This document shows positions 3,500 to 50,973 of a stretch of DNA of 55,325 nucleotides, one piece after another. Both the position numbers and the translations under genes were made by a program. Each line of letters starts with the position of its first letter. The stretch's first letter is position 1. The notes under the pieces are model-generated. The model made no database searches, was not told the origin of the DNA, and saw only the letters and a program-made list of their open reading frames with translations. Origin of the DNA: a virus; the IMG/VR virus record IMGVR_UViG_3300017755_000007, positions 1 through 55,325 of that record; one strand, given 5' to 3'.

Positions 3500-4671
3500 C
3501 AGATTGTAGTATCAGTAATGGACCCAACAGTACCGAAAGGATTGCCTTCGGTGAAATCTATAATATCGTCATCAGCAGTTTCAAAACTATAGTTCTGGTC
3601 AATGCTATCAGCGGTATTAGTATTATTTAGAGTGTTATAGGATTCAGGACTCCAGAGAGCACCTGATGTCAATCCCTTAATTGTTTCTGAAGTATTAAAG
3701 GTTCCTGTTCTATTAATGACTTGGAGTTCTCTTGCAGAACTATTCCAGGACTTGACTTCTGCTCTACTGTCTTTAGGGGAGTAATCAATTGTGACAGTAG
3801 GAACACTAGTATAACCTGTACCGCCAGATGTGATAGTAGCACCAGTGACAATACCAGCACTAGAAATCGTAGCAGTCGCTGTAGCACCACTTCCACCACC
3901 TCCTGTGATTGTAATTGTTGGTGGCAGAGCAGACTTATAGTGCTCACCACCATCTGTAATTGTTATTGCGTTTACTGCCCCCGAATCAATCGTTGCAGTT
4001 GCAGCAGCAAGATATAAGTCACCGACAATTTCTTCACCAACTGTAAAGTCGCCAGATCCACCAGCATCCATTACTAGTTTGATAGAATTGGCGAAGGCAG
4101 TTTCGATAGCATCAATCTCGGCAACACCAGTATCAATTTTTTCGTCACTATACTCAAAGAGTTCGCATTGACATTCCCAAACATAACCTTTACCCAATTG
4201 ATAAAAGGGTTTTTCTGCTTCTACAAACTTAATCTCAAATAAATGTTTTGTTGTTGGAAACCAAATAAGATCTCCCTCATTAGGACGACCCTCTACATTT
4301 AAAGCGGCGTTATCATCTACCTTCTCAGTAAATTTAGTTCGCGAGAAAATAAACGTAGTCTTATCTTCAATACGAACACCAAACTTACTCAGAAGTTCTC
4401 CCTGACCTTCCCATCCTTCCACATTGTTGACATATGCTCTAACAGAAAGTGCTTGTGTAAAGTTACTACTTTCTACTTCTTGAAAGATTGTATCTTTATT
4501 AACATATGTTCTGGGTAGATAATAAATGTCTTGTCCATAGAGTTCAATACTCTCATTAATGAGATTGCCCATAAACATTTGTTCCTGGGAAGAACCATTT
4601 AGATTTAGTCGGCAACTACTTGTATAGTCCGACTGAATACAATTTTCTGGGGGATCGTTTCTATAAGTCAT
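3499..4671 (-). CDS. gp14: Neck protein gp14 with C-terminal beta-repeat extension
   Basis: Residues 1-190 follow T4 gp14: LxxESIELYGQDIYYLPR, NFTQALSVRAYVN, GWEGQGELLSKFGVRIED, EGDLIWFP and EKPFYQLG all have close counterparts in it. gp14 joins gp13 in the neck that seals the DNA-filled head and receives the tail. The protein is 390 residues against about 256 in T4. The extra part is made of two GSGYTSxP-type units (about residues 228-297) and an SWN unit (RAEVKSWNSSARELQVI) followed by a TSGA segment to about residue 346. The same units recur in baseplate and fibre genes of this window. Stop and start codons with gp13 are one base apart. Confidence 0.9.
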   Translation of the reverse strand: MTYRNDPPENCIQSDYTSSCRLNLNGSSQEQMFMGNLINESIELYGQDIYYLPRTYVNKDTIFQEVESSNFTQALSVRAYVNNVEGWEGQGELLSKFGVRIEDKTTFIFSRTKFTEKVDDNAALNVEGRPNEGDLIWFPTTKHLFEIKFVEAEKPFYQLGKGYVWECQCELFEYSDEKIDTGVAEIDAIETAFANSIKLVMDAGGSGDFTVGEEIVGDLYLAAATATIDSGAVNAITITDGGEHYKSALPPTITITGGGGSGATATATISSAGIVTGATITSGGTGYTSVPTVTIDYSPKDSRAEVKSWNSSARELQVINRTGTFNTSETIKGLTSGALWSPESYNTLNNTNTADSIDQNYSFETADDDIIDFTEGNPFGTVGSITDTTI

Positions 4672-11819: not shown

Positions 11820-12064
11820 AATGTTTTACTTTGATTTTGGACTAACGTTAGTAAGAGAGATTTAATATCACTCATATCAGATTTTAGATCAGAAACCTCT
11901 TTTTGTAAAGCTCTCTTCTCCATTTCTTCTTGTTGCCTCTTATTGTAAGATGCCATATATTTATCATATTCATCTTGACTACCTTTTAGGATAGCATTGG
12001 AAGAAGGATCTCTATAGACACCCTCCTTCCCTTCAACTGGAATTAAATCTTCAAAATCGTTCAT
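11816..12064 (-). CDS. Small coiled-coil protein, 82 aa
   Basis: The N-terminal part (DLIPVEGKEGVYRDPSSNAI) is a compact conserved-looking motif. From about residue 40 the chain is a helix with heptads (QQEEMEKRALQKEVSDLKSD, then MSDIKSLLLTLVQNQ). I recall similar short GVYRD...SNAIL proteins in marine T4-like phages without an assigned role. It overlaps the DUF4815 gene by one base and the 76-aa gene by four, placing it in the baseplate operon. A bridging or assembly role is a guess. Confidence 0.87.
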   Translation of the reverse strand: MNDFEDLIPVEGKEGVYRDPSSNAILKGSQDEYDKYMASYNKRQQEEMEKRALQKEVSDLKSDMSDIKSLLLTLVQNQSKTL

Positions 12065-15000
12065 TAGGTTGCAAGTGCGATAGCGCGAAGGTCTGCGATT
12101 AGTGGGATTCTTGCTTGACTGGTAGATTTCATAACAATCTTAAGTTGGAATGCGTTGAAATTCAAACCACTTACTTCATAGTAATAATCTTTCCAAAGAA
12201 TTTCTTCTGAAGGAGAAGCGTCATATTGTAGTGGTAACGGCATCAAAGTCCAACCAAGAGAATTGATATCATCATTTGTACCAGTGCTAAATGCTCTGTA
12301 GTAAATTCTAACCTCTGCTTCTGGTGGTCGTGACATTTGGAAGTCGACTCTCAGAGATCTAGATTCTCTAATCAGTCTAGCAAGTCTTGTAATATATACA
12401 CAATCATTCTGATCACCGAAAGGTAATGTAGAAACATCTTGTGTGCGATCAATCTGACCTTGCTGTCCATAAGGTGATGGACCACCAGGCCAATTATTGA
12501 TTCTATTACTTGTAGTAATTAGTGAGCATCTATCAAGGTCAACAACTGGAGAAAGAGTTGACTTTGTAGTAGAAAGATCAATGGCCATTGTTAATGATTT
12601 TTGACCATCCAGTTTTGCCAATTCATTTACTTCAGAACAAATCAGTTTGGGATTTGGGAAGAAATTTAGATCATTAATAGTAATAGTTTGATAAGAACCA
12701 TCATTAACAAAAGAGTTTTGGTCGCGAGGTGTAGATCCACCTTCACCACCACCATCACCAACAGAGGTTCCTGTTGTAGTATTAATCCTAGAAGTGATAG
12801 TAGTTTCAGGCATATTCATGACAGAAATCGTTGGCGTCAATGTTTCAAACTGAGTATTTTGTGTTGCAAATACTCTATTGCCACCTGCACGAATACCACT
12901 ATTAGCAACACCTGCCATTTGAAGCATATAAGTATCCATCCAAGGACATTCAAGACTTGTATGAGTCTTATTAATATCGATTAGGGGAATACCGTCAAGA
13001 TTATAACACTCAACAACAGCACCAGATGAATGTGTTACATCTGATGTTCCATTAGAACCTCTTCCAGAAGTAGCAACAGTAATTGTTTTACCATCAGAAG
13101 AAATGGCAGAGTATTTAATAATTTCATTATCAACTTTGACATAACCAGGATTGGCATCACTAATTGCTGCACCATTGACAACTTTGTGGAAGGTTGATGA
13201 ATCAGTTACTGACAAACTAGTAGCAGCTGCTGCTAGAGCACTAGTGAGAGATGATGGAGAAACTTCAGAAACTACACCTTCAATCTTCACATTATTTTGT
13301 CTACTATGCATACCATGATTTCTATGGTAGATGAGAATTTCTTGCTCATCATTTGCATAATTAGGTGCTGAAGAAAGATATGCACCAAAGGAATCACCAC
13401 TTTCTAAACAGGATGTAACTGTTCCAGTCCAACCACCAGTCTCACTCACACTTTCAGTATCTGTAAATGCACCAGTGATATAGTGAAGAACCAGATTGGC
13501 AGAACCATCCCAAGTCTTAACAATACCAATAGATCCAGAAGTTGCACCAGTAACAATATCACCAACTTCTAGTGTTCCAGTGGCACTACCTACAACCATA
13601 GTTGCAAGTGCCTCAGAGGATCTTAATAAGAAAGTAGTAGTTGTTCCTTGCAACCAATTACCAGAAACGTCGTTTACAGTAATCTTATCAATTACAGAAC
13701 CTGAAGTAGTAGAACTAACAACAGTTGCTTGTGCATTTGATGTTTGCTGAAGTAAACGAGCACCTTGACTAAAGGTGAATTGATCGGCAGCTAAACCAGC
13801 ACTAAGAACAAGTTTTGGTTTAATAGTTTGAATTGGATTATCAATTAATCTATGAACTCCGTTATTACCCCTACCTTGAGGAGTATTATTGAGAACAACC
13901 GTTCCCTGAGTTTGATTAAAGTTCGCACGATAAATCGTAAACTTCAAATCTTCATACTGGTCAGCAGTCCATGTAGATGCGTTCTGAGACTTAAACAGAA
14001 CACCAGCATATGGTTGCTCAGAGATTGTTCTAGTTCCAGTTACATCAACGTCTCCCATTCTAGAGATCCAAACTTGATATTCGTTTGAGTCCGATAAGAG
14101 AACAAAGCAATATTCAACAGACGCCTTAATATAAACAGGTGCTCTAAATGTGAACCTAGTAGGAACTGCAGCACTTGTAGAAATATCAATTGTATCTGGA
14201 GTAATTGTAACATCAGAGAAGGGTAGAATAGTCTTTGTTGGATAACCATTCTCCATAGTACGAATCTGCATAGAGATTGGAATATTTGTATCTTTAGTAT
14301 TAAAGAATACATCTACACCACTCAAGAACATACCACCTTCTTCTTCAACGATAAATGATTGTGCAAGAGGGTCATACCAACCGATCTGCCTTTCCTCTAC
14401 CCTAGTTGTTTGGACAACTCTATCTTCAGAAACAGTATCTCTAACCAGTTCGGCATTACGAACCGCCAAAACATTTTCCTGGACCGTTTGAAGTGTACCA
14501 GTTGCAGAATAAGTTGTATCTGCAGATGAATCGACCGTACCAGGTGCCTTACTATTTTCGTCTGATGTTGTGAATCTAAAGGTTCTTGTGCCAGTTGCCC
14601 AACGTGGATTTGCATCATTCTTTGGAGAAGGAATGAACAAACAACCTTGAAGATTACCAACGTTATCTGTTAATAAACGACGATCTTGAACGACTGCAAC
14701 TGCACCAGAAGTTTGTCCAGTTAAGAGTTCTCCAACCTGAATATTACCAAAGTAATCTGGAGATACAGTCTCCGAAATTGCAGATATATCATGATTCAGA
14801 TATGCAGTTTGAGAGGAGTATGATGTGGGAAGTACTTCTGTACCTTTACCATAAGGATTAGTCTTAAGACCATCATCAGGAGCAACAACTTTTAATTGAG
14901 CACCAGAATTAGAACCAATAACAGTCTCACCCACAACGAAAGGAGTTTCGTTAGTTCTAGAATCAGTTGTAGAGTTTTTGATAATTTCAATAACTTTAGG

Positions 15001-18000
15001 GGTGATATAAGTAGTTACATCGACTCCATCAAAGAATGCATACATTCTTGTGCGTGGTTTCATACGATCAACATTGAAACCAATATTACGTGAACGAATC
15101 CAAGGAATAGCACTTCTAGAAAGAACAGTATCACCTAAAGATCTACGCTCAATCTTAGGAACAACTCTTGTACGGACACCTTGACGTGCCTGATTGTTAA
15201 CAACACGGAAGGTTGTGCGCTCATGTAGATAGAAAAGTCCTTGTCTACGCTGACCATGACCAGCACGACCTAACTGACGACCAACACCATATGTACCTGA
15301 TTGCGATGTTGCTTGAGATGATGACAATGTAGTTTCACCAGTCCAGTTTGTCTGCCAAGATCCCCACTGAATAGGAGCAAAACCATCTTGATCAACTTGC
15401 ATATCTGCAGATACTGATGAGAAATCCCCTTCAATATTTTCTACCCTAGCTGGCATACGATCAGTATCGATCCAATCATCTGATGCAGGTGTTAAATCAA
15501 TACGACCAATAAATGTAAATACGTTGAATGGGTTTACATTTTCAGTCCTAGAAGCATATGGTTGTGTGACGATTGCTACATCATCGTAAGGAAGCATCAG
15601 GACATTTCCTTCAGTCTTAACGATATTTGTAGAATCTTCTTCATTATATTGAAGAGCAACATTAGTAGTGTAATGTTGAGCGCGTAACTGACCCTCTTTA
15701 AAGTCAAGGGAGCATTTATAATCAGGACTAAAGACAGCACCAGTAGTATGATCAGTAAAGTCATCTACTACATAACCATTCTTAAGTCTATCAAAACCAT
15801 TTTCATCGTAGGTTTTTGTATTTTCTGCTTGCGATTCAAGTAAAGATAGGGATGTATAATATTCTACATGAGTTAGTCTGGTTTCCAGATCACCAATGTC
15901 CTTCATTGTATATCGTCTAATCACTTCAGTAGTGATAAGAACATCCCTTTCTGGATCAAACACATATGGTTTGTATTCAATTGATGCTAAGAGCATCGCA
16001 TTTTCAACTTTTGGAGGGGGAATCAAGAAATATCCCGAAACACCTTTACTTACAATTAGTTTGCCGTCATGAGAGAGATATAATTTATCAATTCTAGGAA
16101 GATACCACGAATAGTCGCACCTGAATGAAGAATCGACTTCCATGATATCAAAGATAGTGGCACCACCACTACCACCTGTTGTATTAAAGACCCTAGAAAC
16201 AAAGTCAAAAGTTGTACAATTTACAAAGAATGGAGCACTAACAGTTCCACTACCATTTCTCAGTTCTTGAACAGCAGGACGGAAATCAATTTGATCTCTA
16301 ATATACTTAATAGAACCATCCAACTTGTAGTTTGGAATTTCTTTATATGAAATGCCACTATATGACTCGGCAGAGAAATAATCACCAGATGCTTCATGAC
16401 TTAGATAGTCAAAAATAACAAGTAGTCTTCTCGTGGGTGCAACTGTAGAGGGGAGACGAACGAGTTTAGAAACATCATAGAAGTTAGTTCTTTGACCAGA
16501 TTCAAGACTGAACTGATCTGTGATAACTTTACTTCCAACAAATGTAGAATCTTCGCCATCATCGATGATACCAGTAACTGCAGTACCAGCAGTATTAAAT
16601 CCATTAACAGTCTCACCAGTAAGGAAAGGAATTTCATTCAATCCAACATAGTATAGTTTTAAATCTGAGTTGGAGAAAGAGATAACTCGTCCTCTTGCAC
16701 CAGATGTTTTACCGATAATGAGAGTACTTGCAGCAAAGAATACAGACTCTGTTAGGACAACGTATGGAGACGATGCGTCATTCTCATTAAATGATTCATA
16801 AATTGCATGAACTTGGTAAACATCATTTACACCAAAAGAAATGTCTTGATCTTGGACTCTAGTTCCATACAAAGAACTATAGAGCAATCCTGTAGGTTGT
16901 TCAACTAAGTCTTCCTCCGATTTGAAGACTTTAAGTGCCTTCATCTTAGATGCGGTTTTAATCTTTTTAGTTACTGTGTTCTTAGAAACAAGTGCCGTCA
17001 GAGTAACAGTTGCAACACTACCAAGACCACCAATAGATAGAGATTGGTTACCAGAACCAAAAGTTACAGTTAAAGCACCAAGGTCAACTTCGGCATCAAG
17101 ATTGACGTTCTGACCATTTGAATACACACCAGAACCACCATTAGCGATAATGGTAAGGATATAGTTGTCACTAGACAACGCACCAAAAGATTCTGTTTCT
17201 GGTAAAGTAAAGGTGATAGCACCAGTTGTTACAGTTTTTGATGCAAAGTTTCTATAAACAAAGAACGATTCGTCATCCAAAGACTTCATTGTGTCTTCTG
17301 GAAGGTCAAAAGAAAGTTCTCCGTTTTGATAATCTTTTTGGAAAATGAATGGACGTAATCTAACCAATTCTCCATACTGACCATCATTAACAGTACCAAC
17401 TTTTAAAGTACTATCAATTCTTGCAATTTGATTTGCAAAATCAAAAATCTCACTACTTGAAGGAACAGTAGATTTTTTATTAAGTGCTGTAGTTGCAATA
17501 GCAGCAGGATCAACTCTCAAAACACGATGGGTGTTTGTTCCTTCAAGGTCAGAAAGTGTCGGAGTAACGACATCACCAGGTCTCAAATCTTTTTCAAATC
17601 TTGTACGGAAACCAGTAATATCGTTATTACCAATAGTAGCAACATCAAAAGTTGCATTACCACCACCACCTGAAATTGTAATAGTTTCGTCAACTGCATA
17701 TCCAGTACCAGCAGCATTGATAGTTACTGCAGTAACAGCACCTGCACTCGCTGTAATATCTACAGTTAGACTAGAACCCCCGCCACCAGTTGTAGCAACA
17801 CCTGTAGCAGTTGTATATCCAGTACCACCAACAATGGTGTCTACAGTAAGAACATCACCTTGAGTCTGGTCAATATTAACTGTGGAGGACTCAATAGGTC
17901 GGGAATCATTTAAAATCCAATTTGCGCCAAATCTAATATTACTAGATCCATCTTTACCAAAGGAAGATTTTGCATCAGTTAATTTATAACTGTGTGCTGC

Positions 18001-19650
18001 TTCCAGAGTACCAACATCTCTACCATTAATATCAAGGATTTCACCATTAGAGAAAACACCAGACACATGCTCAAGATAAATGTAATGTGACCCATTACCA
18101 GTATCCGCAATATATCCTGTAGCACCAGATGTTTTACCAGTAACTCTAGTTCCAGAAACATATGGAGTAACTGCATTAGCGATGTTTAACACCGTAAACA
18201 TCTGAGCATCGAAGAACCAAAGATCATAAACACCATCAGCAATTGACGGTTCAATTCCGAACGGTGATGTTGCTGCTAAAGCAGTGCTAGATTTTTGTAA
18301 TTGAATAACTCTACATCTACCGATTCTATTAGCACCAGTTTTTACTGCATTAGTTACATTTGGTTCCCAATCGTCATACAGATCAAGAATCTGATATGCA
18401 TCACTTACACCATCACCAGAAACTTCTGGCCATCCATATACATCATACACTTTGATAAAGTTGCCAAGATTGAAGTTGACAATACCATTCTGGCGTTTTT
18501 CAAAATCTCTTGGTTTATCTACATCAACATATTGAGGTGAAATAAACTCACTTCTATAACCTCTAATATATGCCTTACCAGGACTAACTTCAATTGCTAA
18601 TTTACTATCAGTTGCTTCAAATCCTTGAGCAGATGTTTGTCCCTGTTGATAAACACCATTATTAAATCCATCATTAAGATGCTCACGCATCGTAACATCA
18701 AATGTGTCAATTACATAATCACCAGACTCCTCGTAAGTACGACGAGCCATAGATTTTTCTAACTCACTATATTCAGTTCTTTCAACAAAACTTTCAACTC
18801 TACTATTATTAATTCTTAGTAATTCAATAAAATTCTTATCTGCTTCATCCGAAATCAGTCTCTTAACAAACTGAGTTTGAATTTTAAATCTATGAGCACC
18901 TGGAGCAGAGTAATTAGAAGTTCCTGCAGCATTATCATTTAGAGATTCGTCATCTTCTGGAGTGACAATAGACTCAAGAATATCGAGACCAACCCTATAA
19001 GAAGGAGTGTTTGTGTACTGATCAAGAATGATATAAGAAGATGGTACATTCACAAAATGACCACGGATATAATATACACCTTCACTAATATAAGCAGTAG
19101 ATCCAATTGCAGTGGCATTAACAGGAAGGAGTTGTGCAAAGGGAGTACCAATTTCAATCAGAGTTGAACCAAAAGTAATCTCACTATCTGTAATTAACTG
19201 TTCATTAATCTGGAACGTCTTTAGACCTGTTTCAGATGTTGTATCTCCAGAATCAATATACTTAACATATAAAGTGATATAACTTCTTTCCGATTCTGTA
19301 GCAGAGATACTGTATAGAACTTTTGCTCTGACACCTGTGGTCAGTCCTTCAATAATAGTTCCTGTTAATTGACTTCTATAAGTCTCAACATCACTACCTA
19401 AAAAAGATTCTTGTAGTAAAACTGCTTGAACATCCAAGTCATAACCCACTTGGCCAGGAATGACCATCGCCCCATCTTTGAACAGATGAGTTCCAACAGA
19501 CTCTACTTGATTTTGCAGAATACTCTGCATTGTGCTAAGTTCTCTCGCCTGAATTGGAAATCCAGGTCGGAATAGCACCCTATAAAAATTATTATCCTTA
19601 TCGAAGTCGTCGTAATAAGGGGTGACGTTTAGATTTGTGTTTTGTGCCAT
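12064..19650 (-). CDS. DUF4815-type baseplate/fibre structural protein, 2528 aa
   Basis: The N-terminus (YYDDFDKDNNFYRVLFRPGF, PIQARELSTMQSILQNQVES, GTHLFKDGAMVIPGQVGYD) is the DUF4815 signature found in large virion proteins of cyanophages and relatives, where it occupies the place of T4 gp9-gp10. DUF4815-like sequence seems to cover roughly the first 480 residues. Around residues 597-670 there are two GTGY units (GGTGYTTATGVATTGGGGSS, AAGTGYAVDETITISGGGG), and TSGA segments recur at several points. Near the C-terminus an EIIKY...TSGRGSNGT unit appears, followed by a jelly-roll-like end (AEVRIYYRAFS, DYYYEVSGLNFNAFQLKIVM). It starts at the base where gp8 ends, so translation is coupled. Probable role: baseplate periphery, linking or carrying fibres. 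Confidence 0.92.
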   Translation of the reverse strand: MAQNTNLNVTPYYDDFDKDNNFYRVLFRPGFPIQARELSTMQSILQNQVESVGTHLFKDGAMVIPGQVGYDLDVQAVLLQESFLGSDVETYRSQLTGTIIEGLTTGVRAKVLYSISATESERSYITLYVKYIDSGDTTSETGLKTFQINEQLITDSEITFGSTLIEIGTPFAQLLPVNATAIGSTAYISEGVYYIRGHFVNVPSSYIILDQYTNTPSYRVGLDILESIVTPEDDESLNDNAAGTSNYSAPGAHRFKIQTQFVKRLISDEADKNFIELLRINNSRVESFVERTEYSELEKSMARRTYEESGDYVIDTFDVTMREHLNDGFNNGVYQQGQTSAQGFEATDSKLAIEVSPGKAYIRGYRSEFISPQYVDVDKPRDFEKRQNGIVNFNLGNFIKVYDVYGWPEVSGDGVSDAYQILDLYDDWEPNVTNAVKTGANRIGRCRVIQLQKSSTALAATSPFGIEPSIADGVYDLWFFDAQMFTVLNIANAVTPYVSGTRVTGKTSGATGYIADTGNGSHYIYLEHVSGVFSNGEILDINGRDVGTLEAAHSYKLTDAKSSFGKDGSSNIRFGANWILNDSRPIESSTVNIDQTQGDVLTVDTIVGGTGYTTATGVATTGGGGSSLTVDITASAGAVTAVTINAAGTGYAVDETITISGGGGNATFDVATIGNNDITGFRTRFEKDLRPGDVVTPTLSDLEGTNTHRVLRVDPAAIATTALNKKSTVPSSSEIFDFANQIARIDSTLKVGTVNDGQYGELVRLRPFIFQKDYQNGELSFDLPEDTMKSLDDESFFVYRNFASKTVTTGAITFTLPETESFGALSSDNYILTIIANGGSGVYSNGQNVNLDAEVDLGALTVTFGSGNQSLSIGGLGSVATVTLTALVSKNTVTKKIKTASKMKALKVFKSEEDLVEQPTGLLYSSLYGTRVQDQDISFGVNDVYQVHAIYESFNENDASSPYVVLTESVFFAASTLIIGKTSGARGRVISFSNSDLKLYYVGLNEIPFLTGETVNGFNTAGTAVTGIIDDGEDSTFVGSKVITDQFSLESGQRTNFYDVSKLVRLPSTVAPTRRLLVIFDYLSHEASGDYFSAESYSGISYKEIPNYKLDGSIKYIRDQIDFRPAVQELRNGSGTVSAPFFVNCTTFDFVSRVFNTTGGSGGATIFDIMEVDSSFRCDYSWYLPRIDKLYLSHDGKLIVSKGVSGYFLIPPPKVENAMLLASIEYKPYVFDPERDVLITTEVIRRYTMKDIGDLETRLTHVEYYTSLSLLESQAENTKTYDENGFDRLKNGYVVDDFTDHTTGAVFSPDYKCSLDFKEGQLRAQHYTTNVALQYNEEDSTNIVKTEGNVLMLPYDDVAIVTQPYASRTENVNPFNVFTFIGRIDLTPASDDWIDTDRMPARVENIEGDFSSVSADMQVDQDGFAPIQWGSWQTNWTGETTLSSSQATSQSGTYGVGRQLGRAGHGQRRQGLFYLHERTTFRVVNNQARQGVRTRVVPKIERRSLGDTVLSRSAIPWIRSRNIGFNVDRMKPRTRMYAFFDGVDVTTYITPKVIEIIKNSTTDSRTNETPFVVGETVIGSNSGAQLKVVAPDDGLKTNPYGKGTEVLPTSYSSQTAYLNHDISAISETVSPDYFGNIQVGELLTGQTSGAVAVVQDRRLLTDNVGNLQGCLFIPSPKNDANPRWATGTRTFRFTTSDENSKAPGTVDSSADTTYSATGTLQTVQENVLAVRNAELVRDTVSEDRVVQTTRVEERQIGWYDPLAQSFIVEEEGGMFLSGVDVFFNTKDTNIPISMQIRTMENGYPTKTILPFSDVTITPDTIDISTSAAVPTRFTFRAPVYIKASVEYCFVLLSDSNEYQVWISRMGDVDVTGTRTISEQPYAGVLFKSQNASTWTADQYEDLKFTIYRANFNQTQGTVVLNNTPQGRGNNGVHRLIDNPIQTIKPKLVLSAGLAADQFTFSQGARLLQQTSNAQATVVSSTTSGSVIDKITVNDVSGNWLQGTTTTFLLRSSEALATMVVGSATGTLEVGDIVTGATSGSIGIVKTWDGSANLVLHYITGAFTDTESVSETGGWTGTVTSCLESGDSFGAYLSSAPNYANDEQEILIYHRNHGMHSRQNNVKIEGVVSEVSPSSLTSALAAAATSLSVTDSSTFHKVVNGAAISDANPGYVKVDNEIIKYSAISSDGKTITVATSGRGSNGTSDVTHSSGAVVECYNLDGIPLIDINKTHTSLECPWMDTYMLQMAGVANSGIRAGGNRVFATQNTQFETLTPTISVMNMPETTITSRINTTTGTSVGDGGGEGGSTPRDQNSFVNDGSYQTITINDLNFFPNPKLICSEVNELAKLDGQKSLTMAIDLSTTKSTLSPVVDLDRCSLITTSNRINNWPGGPSPYGQQGQIDRTQDVSTLPFGDQNDCVYITRLARLIRESRSLRVDFQMSRPPEAEVRIYYRAFSTGTNDDINSLGWTLMPLPLQYDASPSEEILWKDYYYEVSGLNFNAFQLKIVMKSTSQARIPLIADLRAIALAT

Positions 19651-21182
19651 TAGAACTCGATTACGATTTTGATGTCTTCTACTTGGTCGTTTGCACGACT
19701 AATTGCTCTTCTATTATCTATATAAACAACCTGACCACTATTTGGTTCAATCTCGGCTTTTGCAAATCCGTTATTAAATCTCATACCCAAGTCATATTCA
19801 GTGTTGTTAATAGTTCTAGAAGAAGAATTTGGTACTGCGGGAAAGTTTACGTCTGGTTGACCTGATGCACCAGAAGTTGCTCCACTAATTACATTGGAAC
19901 CGTCAAACTCATTTTGTGTGCCTGTAACTTCAGGGAAAATTCCATCAACAGAGTTCTGGTAATATTTTAGAACTTTTGTTATTGCATTCCAAGAAATAAC
20001 ACGACCACGAGCAGTAACGTTTGTTCCACCAACAACTCTAGTTTGAGTAATAATTTCGTCAGGAACATAGTTCCCTTGAAAAATTGGTGAAAAAATAACT
20101 GCTTTAGTTGCAGATACCGTTAGATCTGAGATGAGTTCTGCTGTTCCAAACTTAAGAGGATTTGTTACAAGACCAATACGACGATAGTCATTATCAATAG
20201 GGAAATCACCAGCACCTTCATCATATGATAGTTTAGCGTTGATCATGACACGAAAAGCGCCAATTTCAACAGCAGAATCATTACCGTGTCCATTTGGTGG
20301 AGGAATGATAACATCAACTTCTCCACTAGTTCCTGTTCCAATACCAGTGATAGCACCAATACTGATTTGACCGAATGTATATCCAGTACCACCAGAAGTA
20401 ACTGTGGCTGATGTAATCTTACCACCATCAACAACGATGGAAACACGACCGCCAGCACCATCACCATTAATGGCAACATTATCATAAGTTCCGTTGTTAT
20501 AACCAGAACCAGATGAGTTAATTACAACAGTATCAATTTCACCACCAACAGCATTTGTTTTTACCGCGTCATTGGTAAAGACGGGCATGTAATCGTTGGA
20601 GAAAAACTTAAGAACCGAAGCAACTGGAATAGTGTACATGTACTTCCAACGATATCCATCGCCAGTAGTAATAATACTGGTGGAAGTACCAGTAGGTTCA
20701 ACAGTAGAAGGTTTTCCATTAGGATCAGAAGGAGATGTTCCGTTGTAAATACACTTATATACTTGATATTGTGAATTTACAACATAAAAATCTGCATCAT
20801 ATAGTTTAGTGGCACCAGAGGAGGCAGTCTTACTAGGAGAATAGTCATGACGATACATATCGTAGGTAAAACCTAAACCACCAGTGGTTTGTTCGGGAGA
20901 TACCCAATCAATACGTCGACAAACCTGAATAGTGTCCGCAGCAAGGACTCTCTTCAGGGAAATCATATCGTCATATGAATTAGAAAACTCCGAGAAGGAG
21001 TCAACTGCTTGAGGGGGAGAATTTTCATTATCCCAAGACTGAGGTCTTCCAATGAAAACATAAAGTCTATCACGATTAGATCCTGCTAAAGAATCAGATT
21101 CAGTCGCATTGGGACCTTCAAGTGCCTTGATGAATTTTCTCGCAGAGAAAATTCTAAATTGATCAGTTAGTAGGGCTGCCAT
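19650..21182 (-). CDS. gp8: Baseplate wedge gp8, enlarged
   Basis: The first 200 residues (MAALLTDQFRIFSARKFIKA, DRLYVFIGRPQSWDN, SNSYDDMISLKRVLAADTIQ, GYRWKYMYTIP) are the hallmark of gp8 in marine T4-like phages. gp8 is a dimeric wedge component of the baseplate. This copy has 510 residues against 334 in T4. The extra length is made of GSGY units (about residues 208-298: SGSGYNNGTYDNVAINGDG, TSGGTGYTFGQISIG) and an SWN/TSGA unit (about 372-455: GRVISWNAITKVLKYY, SGATSGASG). A late box lies 30 bases upstream and AGGAA precedes the ATG. Confidence 0.88.
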   Translation of the reverse strand: MAALLTDQFRIFSARKFIKALEGPNATESDSLAGSNRDRLYVFIGRPQSWDNENSPPQAVDSFSEFSNSYDDMISLKRVLAADTIQVCRRIDWVSPEQTTGGLGFTYDMYRHDYSPSKTASSGATKLYDADFYVVNSQYQVYKCIYNGTSPSDPNGKPSTVEPTGTSTSIITTGDGYRWKYMYTIPVASVLKFFSNDYMPVFTNDAVKTNAVGGEIDTVVINSSGSGYNNGTYDNVAINGDGAGGRVSIVVDGGKITSATVTSGGTGYTFGQISIGAITGIGTGTSGEVDVIIPPPNGHGNDSAVEIGAFRVMINAKLSYDEGAGDFPIDNDYRRIGLVTNPLKFGTAELISDLTVSATKAVIFSPIFQGNYVPDEIITQTRVVGGTNVTARGRVISWNAITKVLKYYQNSVDGIFPEVTGTQNEFDGSNVISGATSGASGQPDVNFPAVPNSSSRTINNTEYDLGMRFNNGFAKAEIEPNSGQVVYIDNRRAISRANDQVEDIKIVIEF

Positions 21183-21223: not shown

Positions 21224-24200
21224 TTACGAACGAGCATTAGATATGTATTCAATGCTCTTAATTCTATAAGATGCTCCACTATTACCAAGGATCTTTTCAC
21301 CACCCATAATTGCATATCCACTAGCACCTGAACCTGTGGTATCTCCGCCAGCATTTGTGAATGTAATTGTTGGGTGTAAGTTATATGTTCCATCAATAGT
21401 TTGTGGAATACCATAACCACCATTAGTTAATGTAATGCTAGATACTTGGTCTCCTGCAGTAGTCATAACTACAGTTCCAACCGCTTGTATATCTCCAGTA
21501 TTCTCGACGGCGATTGTTGGTGGTGCTGTATAGTTTGTTCCAGGATTTTGAATATACACATCAACGATAGTGCTTTTCTCTGAGAATTGATATAAGTAAC
21601 CTGCCTCACCTACAGAAACATTCCCAGTATTAAATGGAATGATAGATTGAACTTGGAGAATATTTGTGTTTGGATTCCAAGAAACAACAGTTCCTTTAAT
21701 ACCAGAGACTTCTCCAGTTACAACTTCATTGACGCTATAGTTTTGTCCATTACCAAATGAAGGGTCTACAGTAATGTTGACTAGAGCAGTATGATCGGTT
21801 CCTTCATTAAGACCACCTGCTGTAGAGATAGCAGCATATCTAAATGGTACATTTGCATCCTTAATAGCATCTCCAACTTGGAATAGTGTTGTATTTGTAC
21901 CACCTTGTGTTTCCTCAATGCCATAAAGTGAATTATAAATTCCACCATCTAGATTGATTTGATTAGCATATTCTGTTGCTGTATTTACCAAATCTGGAAT
22001 GCCATCCCCAGCGCCAGACTGTTCATCATCATCTTCAAATATCTTATCCGTTAGAGTTGTAATTGGTGTGGTCAATAAAGTAATTGTAGATCCTAATTCA
22101 ACTAAAAGCACATGAGGTTCTTGCCCAAACGCGGTACTATTTGAAACTCCTGCATCAAATTGAACTGTTGCATCCTCTGTAGAAGGAATACCACCATCAA
22201 TGAATGCAAGTTCATCAATTTCAAAAACAAGTAATAATTCTCTAGTAGACGAATTCCAATCATATACTTTAGCAATTTTATTTGATGCGCTCTCAACTCT
22301 ACGAATAAGTCTATCACCAACATTAAATTTATAAGTTGAAACACCAAACTGATCATTTTGAGCATCATCTAATATTACTCTTTGGTCATAATTAAAATTA
22401 ACTCCACGAGTAAGACCCGAAAACTTTTCATCAGTTTTTGAAGTATATGCAATAGTCTCATAATCAAGAATGAATTCTCCAGATCCTGGAAAAGCAGTAG
22501 TTGATTTTACATAAATTTCAGAGTCATCTGGAAGAACATCTTTTGACAATCCAGTCAAGAAAATGGTTGAACTATTATTGGATTGACGAGCTCGTGTTCT
22601 ACGTTTTAGATTAACTAGTCGAGTAAAGATAACATTAGGTGAAGATGTATATCCATCACCCTGATCGGTGACAGTGATACCTGTTATTTCACCTTGGTTA
22701 ATTGTGGCAAATGCTTTTGCTCCAATACCACCACCACCAGTCAAGAGAACGAATGGAGGTTCTTGATAGAACTCACCAGGATCTGCAATACTAATTGTTG
22801 TTACTTTACCAGTGATGTCAATCTTGGCAGCACCTTTAGCATCCTGTCCACCACCACCTTCAAAAATTACTGTAGGTGCTGTAGAATAACTTCTTCCAGG
22901 ATTTAAGAGTGTGAGACCAGTTACTGTTTGTACTGTAGGTGTTCCTGTTGCACCAGATCCTTCACCACCCAATATCTTTGCCTTTGCCGATCCAAAGTAG
23001 TTATCACCGTTTCTTGACATCTTGATGTAGGAAACGCCACCAGTATCATCTAAAACAACTTCTCCTGCTGCTCCATCAGGGAATGTGTTTGGGAGCGAAG
23101 GAACAACATCACCTTCAAATATCGGAGTTCCGTAATACTTAGGACCGATAGCATATGGATATACAGGATTTCCACTACCATCTTCAGTCATAAAGTATGC
23201 ATATGTTCCATTTGGATACTCTGGTGTTACAGCAAACTTACCATTAAATGCATCCAGTGTCCCAACACCAGAATCGTAAATATAATCCTGAACAAGATCT
23301 CCTAATACATAACCAGATTGAACAGTTCTAAGACCTAATCCCGAATTACTATATCCGAAAACATAAAGTGTAGGTGGTGCTGTAACAGGAACAGTAATTC
23401 TAGTTTCTCTTGTAGTTGCACCATTAAAAGCACTGACATATTCTGCAAATGTAGAAACTGCAGATCCATCAATATAATATTCGACGCCCAATGTATACAA
23501 GAATGAAGTCTGTCCAATTGCTGGTGGATCACCAACACTGTGCCAACCATCCTCAGTTTCACTAATTAATAAAAATTCTGCATCATTGGAAGAATCATTT
23601 TGATTAAAAATATGTGTTTTACCCCTTTCAAGGGACAAGAAATTTGGTCTAGACCCATCAAATAAAAATTCACCATTAGAAACTGTTATTGCATAAGTAA
23701 CTGATGAAACAGTATTTACTTGAGGTCTAGTACCAGGAAGTTCAGCATTCGTCCTTAAACGAAAAGAAGATACTTCTCTTGCAGCATTACCGCTTGAATT
23801 GTATCCATAAGGTCCATAGATAGGATAACCATCATAAGACATGCCAAGAATTTTAGAATGCCCATCAAGATGACGACTATAATCTAAAGTTGCTCCCGTT
23901 CCGAAATAATTTTCAACATAATAATTATTGATTATAGGTTCAGCACTGGTATCAGTATCGATAGTAATATAACCTTCATCACCATCATAACCAGACATAT
24001 TGGCATGATGTTTACAGAAATAATAAATTCTATTAGTTTCATCAGAATTCATTATAAAGAGTGGAGCATACTCATTTTCATAGTCTACAGATGGTGCTGC
24101 AGATGCTCCTGTACTCTGATAATATAGAACTCCAGGTGAATCATTATGAATTCCGTCAGAAGTTATACTGAACTGTATTGGATGTCCTACACCTTGAATA

Positions 24201-25369
24201 TTAGATGAATCTGATTGATTAAATTTAATTAAAGAATTTTGCTTTACTTTAATATTATCGGGTGCCAAATAATACTGACCAGGAGAAAATGGACCAAACT
24301 TTTCAGCATCAACTCCAAAATCAATATAATAAACATTCAGAGAAATTGGTGGTGAAGTAATTGTGAATGTAAATCCATTAGAACCTAAACATCTATCATT
24401 TTCAGCAAAAACTTCTGCAGTGGAAACTGATCTGAGATAAATTCTAGTAATATTATTTAAATCATCTCTAGCAATTTTTGCAACCTCCCCTCTTGCACCA
24501 CCACCAATTTCATCAACTATTCTACCAATACTAATATTTCCTAATGTTTCATCAACATTAGAAACATCTAGCATAATATTTCCATATTCAACCTTAATAT
24601 TCCAAGTGTATTGTTTTAGTTTACCCCACTCAAATACACCATTTGCTGTAGAAAATTCATCAATGACTTTACTAGATTGATAATATCTTACATTTCCCTC
24701 AGTTACTGTATCATAAACAGTATTAGATTTTATATAGTCATACTTTACAGAATCAATAGCAAAATTAGTCGGTGCATTGCCTGCAGTACCCCATTCAGGA
24801 GTATGGAGTAAACCACCATTTGCAAGAATTCCTAAAACTTTATCCGTCTGTTCCGCTCGGATTCCTGCATCAGGAGCATCTTTACCACCACGGTAAATAA
24901 ATGTCTGATCAAAATTTCTATCTACTAATGGTCCTCCAGATGGAATTGATTCCGTTTGAGTCCAGGTTGGTTTAGGATCATTATCAGAGAAAATACGAAG
25001 TCTATCTGTATCAACAGCAAATGTTCCAATAGTAGGTGAGTTTGGATTAGATTGCCAAATTTTATTTATATTAAAAGATGAAATTACGTTTGGTGTTTCT
25101 TGCTCAGGGAAAAATCTCAATCTTAGAGGATCATACCCTCTTCCCCTTTCTAAAACTCTAACATGCGTAATTCTACCAGATGCACTATCAATAATAGGAT
25201 ACAAAAGTGCTTCTTGGTCTGGAGTTCCACAACCAGTTACAGTTAAACGAGGGGGATCTGATTGTGAATAACCAGATCCACCATCTACTACTCTTATCGC
25301 ACGAACACCGAAAATCTCATCAAAGATTGGTTCGATGGCAGCACCTGATCCAGGAACAGTTCTTGTCAT
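21224..25369 (-). CDS. Cupredoxin and YHYH domain virion protein, 1381 aa
   Basis: A mosaic protein. It opens with GSGYSQSDPP and GRGY units (residues 28-82). A cupredoxin-like domain follows at about 340-470 with the ligand set H396, C452, H455 and M458 (VGHPIQFS; YYFCKHHANMSG). Next is a YHYH domain (about 499-545 and 685-745: GMSYDGYPIYGPYGY; AFNGKFAVTPEYPNG; YPYAIGPKYYG). It is interrupted by a second cupredoxin-like segment (about 560-680) that lacks the ligands (LYVFGYSNSGLG). Then come three GSGY-type units (about 810-915), an ETIAYTSKT...GLTRGV unit, and SWN units up to the C-terminus. It starts six bases after the 406-aa fibre gene and is followed by a late promoter for gp8. Probable role: baseplate or fibre component exposed on the virion. 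Metal binding is predicted from residues only. Confidence 0.9.
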   Translation of the reverse strand: MTRTVPGSGAAIEPIFDEIFGVRAIRVVDGGSGYSQSDPPRLTVTGCGTPDQEALLYPIIDSASGRITHVRVLERGRGYDPLRLRFFPEQETPNVISSFNINKIWQSNPNSPTIGTFAVDTDRLRIFSDNDPKPTWTQTESIPSGGPLVDRNFDQTFIYRGGKDAPDAGIRAEQTDKVLGILANGGLLHTPEWGTAGNAPTNFAIDSVKYDYIKSNTVYDTVTEGNVRYYQSSKVIDEFSTANGVFEWGKLKQYTWNIKVEYGNIMLDVSNVDETLGNISIGRIVDEIGGGARGEVAKIARDDLNNITRIYLRSVSTAEVFAENDRCLGSNGFTFTITSPPISLNVYYIDFGVDAEKFGPFSPGQYYLAPDNIKVKQNSLIKFNQSDSSNIQGVGHPIQFSITSDGIHNDSPGVLYYQSTGASAAPSVDYENEYAPLFIMNSDETNRIYYFCKHHANMSGYDGDEGYITIDTDTSAEPIINNYYVENYFGTGATLDYSRHLDGHSKILGMSYDGYPIYGPYGYNSSGNAAREVSSFRLRTNAELPGTRPQVNTVSSVTYAITVSNGEFLFDGSRPNFLSLERGKTHIFNQNDSSNDAEFLLISETEDGWHSVGDPPAIGQTSFLYTLGVEYYIDGSAVSTFAEYVSAFNGATTRETRITVPVTAPPTLYVFGYSNSGLGLRTVQSGYVLGDLVQDYIYDSGVGTLDAFNGKFAVTPEYPNGTYAYFMTEDGSGNPVYPYAIGPKYYGTPIFEGDVVPSLPNTFPDGAAGEVVLDDTGGVSYIKMSRNGDNYFGSAKAKILGGEGSGATGTPTVQTVTGLTLLNPGRSYSTAPTVIFEGGGGQDAKGAAKIDITGKVTTISIADPGEFYQEPPFVLLTGGGGIGAKAFATINQGEITGITVTDQGDGYTSSPNVIFTRLVNLKRRTRARQSNNSSTIFLTGLSKDVLPDDSEIYVKSTTAFPGSGEFILDYETIAYTSKTDEKFSGLTRGVNFNYDQRVILDDAQNDQFGVSTYKFNVGDRLIRRVESASNKIAKVYDWNSSTRELLLVFEIDELAFIDGGIPSTEDATVQFDAGVSNSTAFGQEPHVLLVELGSTITLLTTPITTLTDKIFEDDDEQSGAGDGIPDLVNTATEYANQINLDGGIYNSLYGIEETQGGTNTTLFQVGDAIKDANVPFRYAAISTAGGLNEGTDHTALVNITVDPSFGNGQNYSVNEVVTGEVSGIKGTVVSWNPNTNILQVQSIIPFNTGNVSVGEAGYLYQFSEKSTIVDVYIQNPGTNYTAPPTIAVENTGDIQAVGTVVMTTAGDQVSSITLTNGGYGIPQTIDGTYNLHPTITFTNAGGDTTGSGASGYAIMGGEKILGNSGASYRIKSIEYISNARS

Positions 25370-25374
25370 TTATA

Positions 25375-26595
25375 TCAAACGATAACGTTAATAGTGCCAT
25401 TCATCTGTGCATGAATGGTGCATTGATAATAAAGAGTGTTTGGAGCATCCATTGGGATTGTAAAGTACAATACCGAAGTTCCACTACCAGTTTGACCTGT
25501 AGTATATGGAGTTCCTGTTAATCCCTGAGTGCTTTGAACTCTAAATGGGTGTTGTCCCCCATTTGTACTATTGTCAAAGGCATATGTCATTCCTCTCATC
25601 ACATAGAGAGTGGGATCACTTGTGACTCCAGAAAATCCAGGACCATTAAATGTAAAGTTATTAGCACCATCAGCACCCAGTTCCCACCAAGTAAGTGGAC
25701 TACGAGTCACAACCCAATCAGTTCCATTCCAATATAAAGAATCGCCTTGAGTGATACCAGTAACATCAGTATCAGTTAATGCAGCAAGAGTTGTAGTAAG
25801 AGTACCATTGAAACTTACTGTTAGTGTATCACCAGTAACTTGTGTGGCAATATTAGTACCACCAGTAATTGTTAATGTATCGGAAGAAGTATTAGCAGTT
25901 GTACTTCCAGTATCCCCCGCAATGGTAGCAAAGATATTCTGTTCTCCTGCACCAGCTACATCATCAGCAGGAACAAAATTAGTTCCATTCCACTTCAGTA
26001 CTTGGTTAGTTGTAGGAGCAACAGTTGTAACATCAACATCAGACAGAGCATCAATCCCAGAATACTCAGTAAGAAGTTTTGCTCTAGTATCACCAACACC
26101 ACCAGAAGTGATGTTCATGTTCACATATGGATTATCATCACCATCAACTGTAAAGAAATAACCAGGTGTAGATGCTGCAGTAGGGGCATTACCTAATGTA
26201 GTATATTCATTTTTATAGGAAATTGTCGATCCTACACTAACACCACCAGTAGCACCATCAAAAATAGTAGTTAAACTTCCAGTGGTAATTCTAACGTCAC
26301 CTGTTCCGTTTGGAGCAAGAGTAATATCACCATCAGATGATGAAATGATAGAATTACCAGAAACGTCTAATGCAGATGTTAATGCATTGAAATTACCAGG
26401 AGAAAATGATGACCCATCATATTTTAAAACTTGACCCACTGCGGGATTTAATACAGAGATGCCCAAAGCAGACCCATTACCAATGGCGGTATATAGTTCA
26501 TTAAAATTATCATTAATTTTGTCACCGCCACTCCTTAGAGTATCACCTGTATTGTCATTGGCAACTGTGCCAATGTTTAGGGATTGTTTAGCCAT
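25375..26595 (-). CDS. Fibre-like protein with C-terminal cupredoxin tip, 406 aa
   Basis: Residues 1-40 (SLNIGTVANDNTGDTLRSGG, DKINDNFNELYTAIG) form an attachment motif I know from marine phage fibre and baseplate proteins. The middle holds shaft-like units ALSDVDVTTVAPTTNQVLKW / NGTNFV and ALTDTDVTGITQGDSLYW / NGTDWV. The last 100 residues form a cupredoxin-like domain with H349 (GGQHPFRV), C392, H395 and M398 (YYQCTIHAQMNG), the type-1 copper ligand pattern. A late box ends 20 bases before the ATG. I infer a short fibre whose tip is a blue-copper-like fold. An alternative is that the fold is kept for receptor binding and no metal is bound. Confidence 0.88.
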   Translation of the reverse strand: MAKQSLNIGTVANDNTGDTLRSGGDKINDNFNELYTAIGNGSALGISVLNPAVGQVLKYDGSSFSPGNFNALTSALDVSGNSIISSSDGDITLAPNGTGDVRITTGSLTTIFDGATGGVSVGSTISYKNEYTTLGNAPTAASTPGYFFTVDGDDNPYVNMNITSGGVGDTRAKLLTEYSGIDALSDVDVTTVAPTTNQVLKWNGTNFVPADDVAGAGEQNIFATIAGDTGSTTANTSSDTLTITGGTNIATQVTGDTLTVSFNGTLTTTLAALTDTDVTGITQGDSLYWNGTDWVVTRSPLTWWELGADGANNFTFNGPGFSGVTSDPTLYVMRGMTYAFDNSTNGGQHPFRVQSTQGLTGTPYTTGQTGSGTSVLYFTIPMDAPNTLYYQCTIHAQMNGTINVIV

Positions 26596-50400: not shown

Positions 50401-50973
50401 TTAAATTCCTCCAGTTGCCATTCCAATGAATACGTTGATACTTGCCCCAGTTACTACTGAACAACAAGGGAAAGCTGGACTGAAATCCCCTAGAGGATCG
50501 CCAAACACAGATGCTCGTTTCATATTAATGAATACAGACTTTTGAGTTGCAAAGTGCTTTCTAGAGTGTCCTACAGCAGGTTCACGTCCAGCTACCACGC
50601 CTATTGTACACCAAAAAGCAGGATTTGTCACGCAACCTGGGGGACATCCTTTTGGGATACCTGTATAGCACGCTTGATGCGTAGTTGGAGTCGGATGTGG
50701 TGTTAATATATCCTGATCTACGATAGGTATAATTTTATTGATAAACACATTTCTTGCTGCTCCTAAGGGAGTTGCTGGTGCTTGCAGTAAAGGTGGCCAC
50801 AGTGTAGTTGCGTTCATAAGCATCACTGTCTTAGGAACGATTTTTGGGTCTAGAGGTGGCATCGTACAACCAGGTAATACAGATCCACCTAGTCCTGCAT
50901 GGTGTGTAGACCCACTTCCCGTTCCATGACCACTACAAGGTCCCTGATAAAGTCCTGCTGCTCCTGCTGCCAT
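50401..50973 (-). CDS. PAAR-like baseplate spike-tip protein
   Basis: A 190-residue Gly/Pro/Cys-rich protein with repeated NVFIN-type turns: RNVFINKIIPIVDQDIL, KSVFINMKRASVFGDPLGDF and TGASINVFIGMATGGI. Cys and His residues are spread between them (PGCT, HPTPTTHQACYTG, GCPPGCVTNPAFWC, FPCCSVVTG). This is the layout of PAAR proteins, which form a Zn-binding cone on the tip of contractile spikes (T4 gp5.4). It is longer than a single PAAR domain (about 95 residues) and looks like two or more copies. It lies between the 1014-aa structural gene and the gp25 block, the expected place for spike components. Confidence 0.75.
   Translation of the reverse strand: MAAGAAGLYQGPCSGHGTGSGSTHHAGLGGSVLPGCTMPPLDPKIVPKTVMLMNATTLWPPLLQAPATPLGAARNVFINKIIPIVDQDILTPHPTPTTHQACYTGIPKGCPPGCVTNPAFWCTIGVVAGREPAVGHSRKHFATQKSVFINMKRASVFGDPLGDFSPAFPCCSVVTGASINVFIGMATGGI

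Follow-up and report, generated by a model that had tools for sequence, protein, structure and literature searches.

Does the particle of a marine T4-like phage hold a copper site? The question is raised by a gene on the minus strand of the window, which is the whole stretch of viral DNA that was analysed (55,325 nucleotides). An earlier note had read four residues of the encoded 1381-aa virion protein as a complete type-1 copper ligand set, and all four were found at the bases that it gave: H396 (24182..24184), C452 (24014..24016), H455 (24005..24007) and the axial ligand M458 (23996..23998), all on the minus strand and all conserved in homologues. They map to a cupredoxin domain, here named domain 1 (aa 345-478; 23936..24337, minus strand), which was recognized with a held-out profile and by hhalign alignment to a domain of the neighbouring protein. 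C452 has no disulphide partner in its own domain, because the only other cysteines of the protein are C47 and C327.

The window belongs to the virion gene cluster of a T4-like cyanophage, in which gp25 and gp6 are followed by a 7027-aa protein, a gp9-like protein, the 1381-aa protein and gp8; neck proteins and a protein of 2528 aa are also encoded. Its relatives are cyanophages, and the 387 matching phage records belong nearly throughout to Synechococcus or Prochlorococcus phages. The 1381-aa gene (21224..25369, minus strand) encodes a baseplate wedge protein in the T4 gp7 position, as judged by a full-length PHROG match (phrog_708, E 0) and gene order. It is flanked by genes for a 406-aa gp9-like baseplate wedge/tail-fibre connector (25375..26595, minus strand; T4_gp9_10_N, E 2.1e-11; phrog_677, E 2e-187), which passes the cut-off of the T4 gp9/gp10 N-terminal family PF07880 (44.7 bits vs 25), and for the gp8 baseplate wedge protein (19650..21182, minus strand; Pfam Phage-Gp8, E 1e-16). 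The name gp7 follows the PHROG name and gene order; T4 gp7 itself is described as absent from these phages (PMC7029224). The 2528-aa protein (12064-19650, minus strand), downstream of gp8, occupies the place named VrlC in S-ShM2, a name that is used inconsistently, with VrlC substituting for gp7 in PMC7029224 and lying downstream of gp8 in S-ShM2. Membership of these protein families shows that the two sites described below belong to predicted baseplate components of the virion. The tail-tip setting of which the earlier note spoke was rejected, since the sites belong to wedge and fibre-connector proteins and the PAAR-like protein is encoded by a separate gene (50401-50973).

The spacing C-x2-H-x2-M was seen twice in the main proteins of the window (17,688 aa), where 0.007 occurrences are expected by composition. 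One copy is in the 1381-aa protein and the other in the adjoining gp9-like gene. The ligand set first described is complete, and a second intact one had been overlooked. The second set, H349/C392/H395/M398, is found in the C-terminal cupredoxin domain of the gp9-like protein (aa 298-406; 25378..25704, minus strand; AF2, Foldseek and VIA), with H349 at 25549..25551 and the C392-x2-H395-x2-M398 loop at 25402..25422, both on the minus strand and located from the sequence. The ligand order in both domains is His, Cys, His, Met, as in type-1 sites.

The fold of the gp9-like domain was modelled with AF2 from 34 aligned sequences (pLDDT 93.8). In this model the cysteine ends a strand and the second histidine and methionine lie in the loop preceding the last strand, as in cupredoxins. 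Cupredoxins dominate the list of Foldseek matches in the PDB (2dv6, E 3.4e-5), which includes copper nitrite reductase (CuNiR), rusticyanin, pseudoazurin, amicyanin and laccases. The best fold matches are the N-terminal cupredoxin of the three-domain CuNiR of Hyphomicrobium (VIA-align Z 10.6, rmsd 2.2 over 93 residues) and rusticyanin (Z 7.9-9.5); unlike these, the phage domain comes without enzyme domains, a type-2 copper site or a known redox partner. Among predicted viral proteins the model matched structural proteins from marine phages, fibre connectors and proximal tail fibres among them. Other matches in BFVD were 'beta-sandwich proteins' of Pithovirus and marseilleviruses (A0A481Z6J5, A0A481YWX9 and others; E ~6e-7). 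Matches of the gp9 profile to TPR-type light-chain repeats (E 0.003) were rejected, as no single stretch was significant.

For domain 1 of the gp7-type protein the model was moderate, with block means mostly of 62-86 and one loop of 36 (pLDDT), and the structure comparison of this protein took in domain 2 only; the fold assignment of domain 1 therefore rests on sequence. With gp7 domain 1 left out, a profile of 15 other phage copies found it (aa 371-460) at E 5.9e-10 with the ligands aligned, against 0 of 2000 shuffled sequences, and hhalign paired it with the gp9 domain at E 1.2e-4, again with all four ligands aligned. Similarity of a profile of gp7 domain 1 alone to antibody chains (E 0.01-1) was taken as a chance resemblance among beta-sandwiches.

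The link to copper proteins emerges only after diverse copies are aligned. Neither a single-sequence PDB search nor a Pfam scan with all 1381 aa found a cupredoxin, and PF00127 and PF13473 gave weak matches among the phage copies and none from the two copies of the window; the S-CAM1 copy missed the PF00127 cut-off (20.4 bits vs 21.2). Sixteen diverse copies, from myoviruses, a podovirus and pelagiphage-type fibres, were 25-51% identical to the first, and their sole invariant columns were H, Y, C, H and M. As they had been picked by C-x2-H-x2-M, the independent evidence in these columns is the first H and the Y only. At E<=1 the 16-copy profile had 82 matches in the PDB, and of the 60 listed almost every one is a cupredoxin: CuNiR (4.7e-7), plastocyanin (1.6e-5), amicyanin (1e-4), rusticyanin (1e-3) and also auracyanin. 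Among the 16 copies, the NCBIfam model for amicyanin (TIGR02657) matched four (best 3.6e-5), that for plastocyanin two and that for rusticyanin one, with halocyanin also matching. The phage copies thus resemble the amicyanin/plastocyanin family (PF00127; TIGR02657) in their H ... C-x2-H-x2-M order, amicyanin loop spacing and profile similarity, but they are domains of large virion proteins and not free periplasmic electron carriers, the insert that separates H from C is longer in the gp7 copies, and most copies have proline after the first histidine. Cupredoxin homology with a conserved site in both baseplate proteins is nearly certain, in agreement with the cupredoxin-like site first proposed: profiles place the domains in the type-1 copper superfamily, and the predicted fold does so for the gp9 sister domain. 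That the motif arose by chance, with no cupredoxin whatever, has a negligible probability: the absence of a Pfam match above the threshold is all that speaks for it, and the profiles and the fold have already refuted it.

The cupredoxin site would be doubtful if homologues lost its ligands freely, which they do not. Among 71 gp7 homologues, H was present in 70 with one gap, and C, H and M in 71/71. FCKHHANM was among the search patterns for this set, which was therefore partly found by motif, and the survey was repeated with motif-free queries. With the C-terminal 578 aa of gp7 as query, the first H and the C were conserved in 64/64 each, and H and M in 65/65 where the region was present. With the N-terminal 290 aa only of the gp9-like protein, the ligand set was found in 116/116 (115 by regex, the exception having HPY for HPF and all its ligands). 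A loop-length variant found by similarity and not by motif, in S-SKS1 (L244, ORF at 188, aa 1281-1377), has a longer C-x4-H-x2-M loop and retains C, H and M.

The 1381-aa protein has further parts that had gone unseen when its copper site was first reported: a YHYH domain and a degenerate second cupredoxin domain. The YHYH domain (PF14240, 60.8 bits vs a cut-off of 25; E 2.3e-16 in two stretches) is split into a first half at aa ~490-545 (23735..23902, minus strand), with the sequence DGHSKILGMSYDGYPIYGP and an invariant H504, and a second half at aa ~686-745 (23135..23314, minus strand; PF14240 stretch 686-730). Between the halves lies cupredoxin domain 2 (aa 553-688; 23306..23713, minus strand), whose ligands are lost in the phage of the window. 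Domain 2 is the best-modelled part of the protein (pLDDT mostly >90), resembles rusticyanin and auracyanin (VIA-align Z ~8) and was found by the held-out profile at E 1.7e-7. Compared with PF14240 elsewhere, the gp7 YHYH domain is thus interrupted by one cupredoxin domain and has another ahead of it; compared with T4-like wedge proteins at the gp7 position, the gene order is shared, while two cupredoxins and a YHYH domain are present here. YHYH domains are predicted metal-dependent hydrolases with a His/Asp Zn site (PMC7824862). The 7027-aa virion protein (26619-47702, minus strand) also carries a YHYH signature, HSPIIGWAFDGNPIYGPYGY, at aa ~1430, and had no cupredoxin match. In six gp7 homologues of 1531-1547 aa (L274, L290, L304, L305, L203 and L314), an additional domain of ~160 aa separates cupredoxin 1 from YHYH.

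In a survey of 196 gp7-type proteins (56 clusters at 80% identity), scored by a regex for the C-H-M loop and the upstream His, 49 clusters had the set in domain 1 only, with domain 2 degenerate, and five (S-ShM2 type) lacked domain 1 and had the set in domain 2, where the phage of the window has lost it. Both domains were intact in one cluster, and one had H-C-H-S in domain 1. Twelve proteins in which an insertion displaces the site have it intact and are not losses. Exactly one intact set per protein was thus found in 54/56 clusters, and the domain that bears it differs by lineage, a pattern that folding needs alone explain poorly. Selection that preserves the site, one intact set per gp7-type protein, is well supported by these comparisons.

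The ligand pattern is conserved across hundreds of marine phages, and both myoviruses and podoviruses have cupredoxin copies, which are part of fibre connectors, tail spikes or tail fibres. Five matches were counted in P-HM2 (NC_015284.1) and four in P-SSM2 (NC_006883.2), fibre-like proteins included. The phage records examined name these proteins structural, fibre, wedge or hypothetical; some of the viral proteins may carry automatic superfamily tags in other databases. The open-access literature searched yielded no text that links cupredoxins to a phage baseplate, a tail fibre or a cyanophage virion. To look for a host origin, a bacterial genome collection was searched with the gp9 domain, which gave a sole match, in a contig of a 'Rhodopirellula' MAG (L170, NZVD01000020.1). 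This contig also has gp7 of this phage kind, so that phage DNA, a baseplate contig of cyanophage type, was probably binned with the planctomycete as likely contamination.

Since two baseplate proteins have all four ligands, conserved across phages, the virus particles may carry copper. Structural metals occur in phage tails, with iron in the T4 long fibre tip and Zn or Fe in PAAR tips. A metal site in the virion is quite likely here and copper is probably that metal, with each domain most likely binding one copper ion per subunit. Our main reading, to which we give a probability of about 60% as the whole explanation, is that the gp7-type and gp9-like proteins contain genuine type-1 cupredoxin domains that serve as a copper-locked structural module. 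The gp7-position wedge protein and the gp9-like connector each have an intact type-1 set with a loop of amicyanin length, and copper would lock the ligand loop and the strand of the first histidine into a rigid beta-sandwich. The rigid module would be placed where the fibres join the wedge, adjoining the YHYH domain in gp7, and the outcome would be a stable, outward-facing attachment or host-contact module. The C-terminal part of T4 gp9 holds the long fibre, and the gp9-like site is therefore probably, by analogy, at the fibre joint; the gp9-like protein shares the N-terminal domain (PF07880) and gene order of T4 gp9 but has a cupredoxin as its C-terminal domain. Copper binding and a mainly structural job are both what we infer from these features, and that structure or attachment is the main function has a little less than an even chance.

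The amicyanin-type loop and the electron-transfer relatives of the domain also fit a type-1 centre that truly accepts electrons. If it were reduced at the cell surface, or through electron flow that light drives in the host, the wedge/fibre joint would change and adsorption or contraction would be licensed. Some cyanophages fail to adsorb in the dark (PMC7238727), and such a switch could contribute to their light-dependent adsorption. Dark adsorption of P-HM2 has been modelled as effectively zero and P-SSP7 is not light dependent (PMC7112961); the gp7-type baseplate protein of P-HM2 has an intact site, and a search of P-SSP7 for cupredoxin copies found none. However, these are two phages from different families and give no correlation, the domain also occurs in phages whose hosts lie outside the oxygenic phototrophs (SAR11, Methylophilales and a member of the Actinomycetia), and no redox partner is known. 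The link to light is therefore a lead only, and a redox or light-linked switch is speculative and unlikely as the explanation of the site.

It is also improbable that the domain is cupredoxin-derived but not a copper protein, and that its site is clamped, for structural reasons only, by Zn(II) or some other divalent ion. Phage tails do use iron and Zn structurally, and in one homologue (L140, gp7-type ORF at 4336) the axial Met is replaced by Ser (YYCKNHAYSAGF) with H, C and H kept, the sole such gp7 homologue found. The proline after the first histidine likewise deviates from classical blue copper sites. In cupredoxins a hydrogen bond from the backbone amide at this position to the cysteine sulphur is usual, and with proline it could not form there, a point against the main reading as well. 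Against this reading, Met is retained in every other cluster, a Cys-His2-Met set is characteristic of copper, and the profile matches are copper proteins.

Metal-free cupredoxin folds exist, and the ligand-less domain 2 is one candidate: its ligands are lost in most lineages, so the fold works without metal in the gp7-type protein. The conserved site could by the same token belong to a metal-free adhesin, with its four residues kept for packing or receptor binding. This is decidedly unlikely, as the ligands of domain 2 are gone when domain 1 has a set and retained when domain 1 is absent, and the histidine is invariant across diverse copies while the surrounding residues are not.

For a domain without a name of its own in the phage records examined, the analysis also supplies a fold. 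It is a long shot that particles of marine T4-like phages are loaded with copper in a ring of type-1 centres at the wedge/fibre joint of the baseplate, and that these centres sense redox conditions at the host surface and make adsorption or contraction depend on them. Such a sensor could help to account for the light-dependent adsorption of cyanophages. If a type-1 copper site is indeed conserved in the baseplate and fibre proteins of many ocean phages, it would bring a new metal chemistry to virions, make the particles dependent on trace copper and provide a concrete molecular candidate for redox- or light-gated adsorption.
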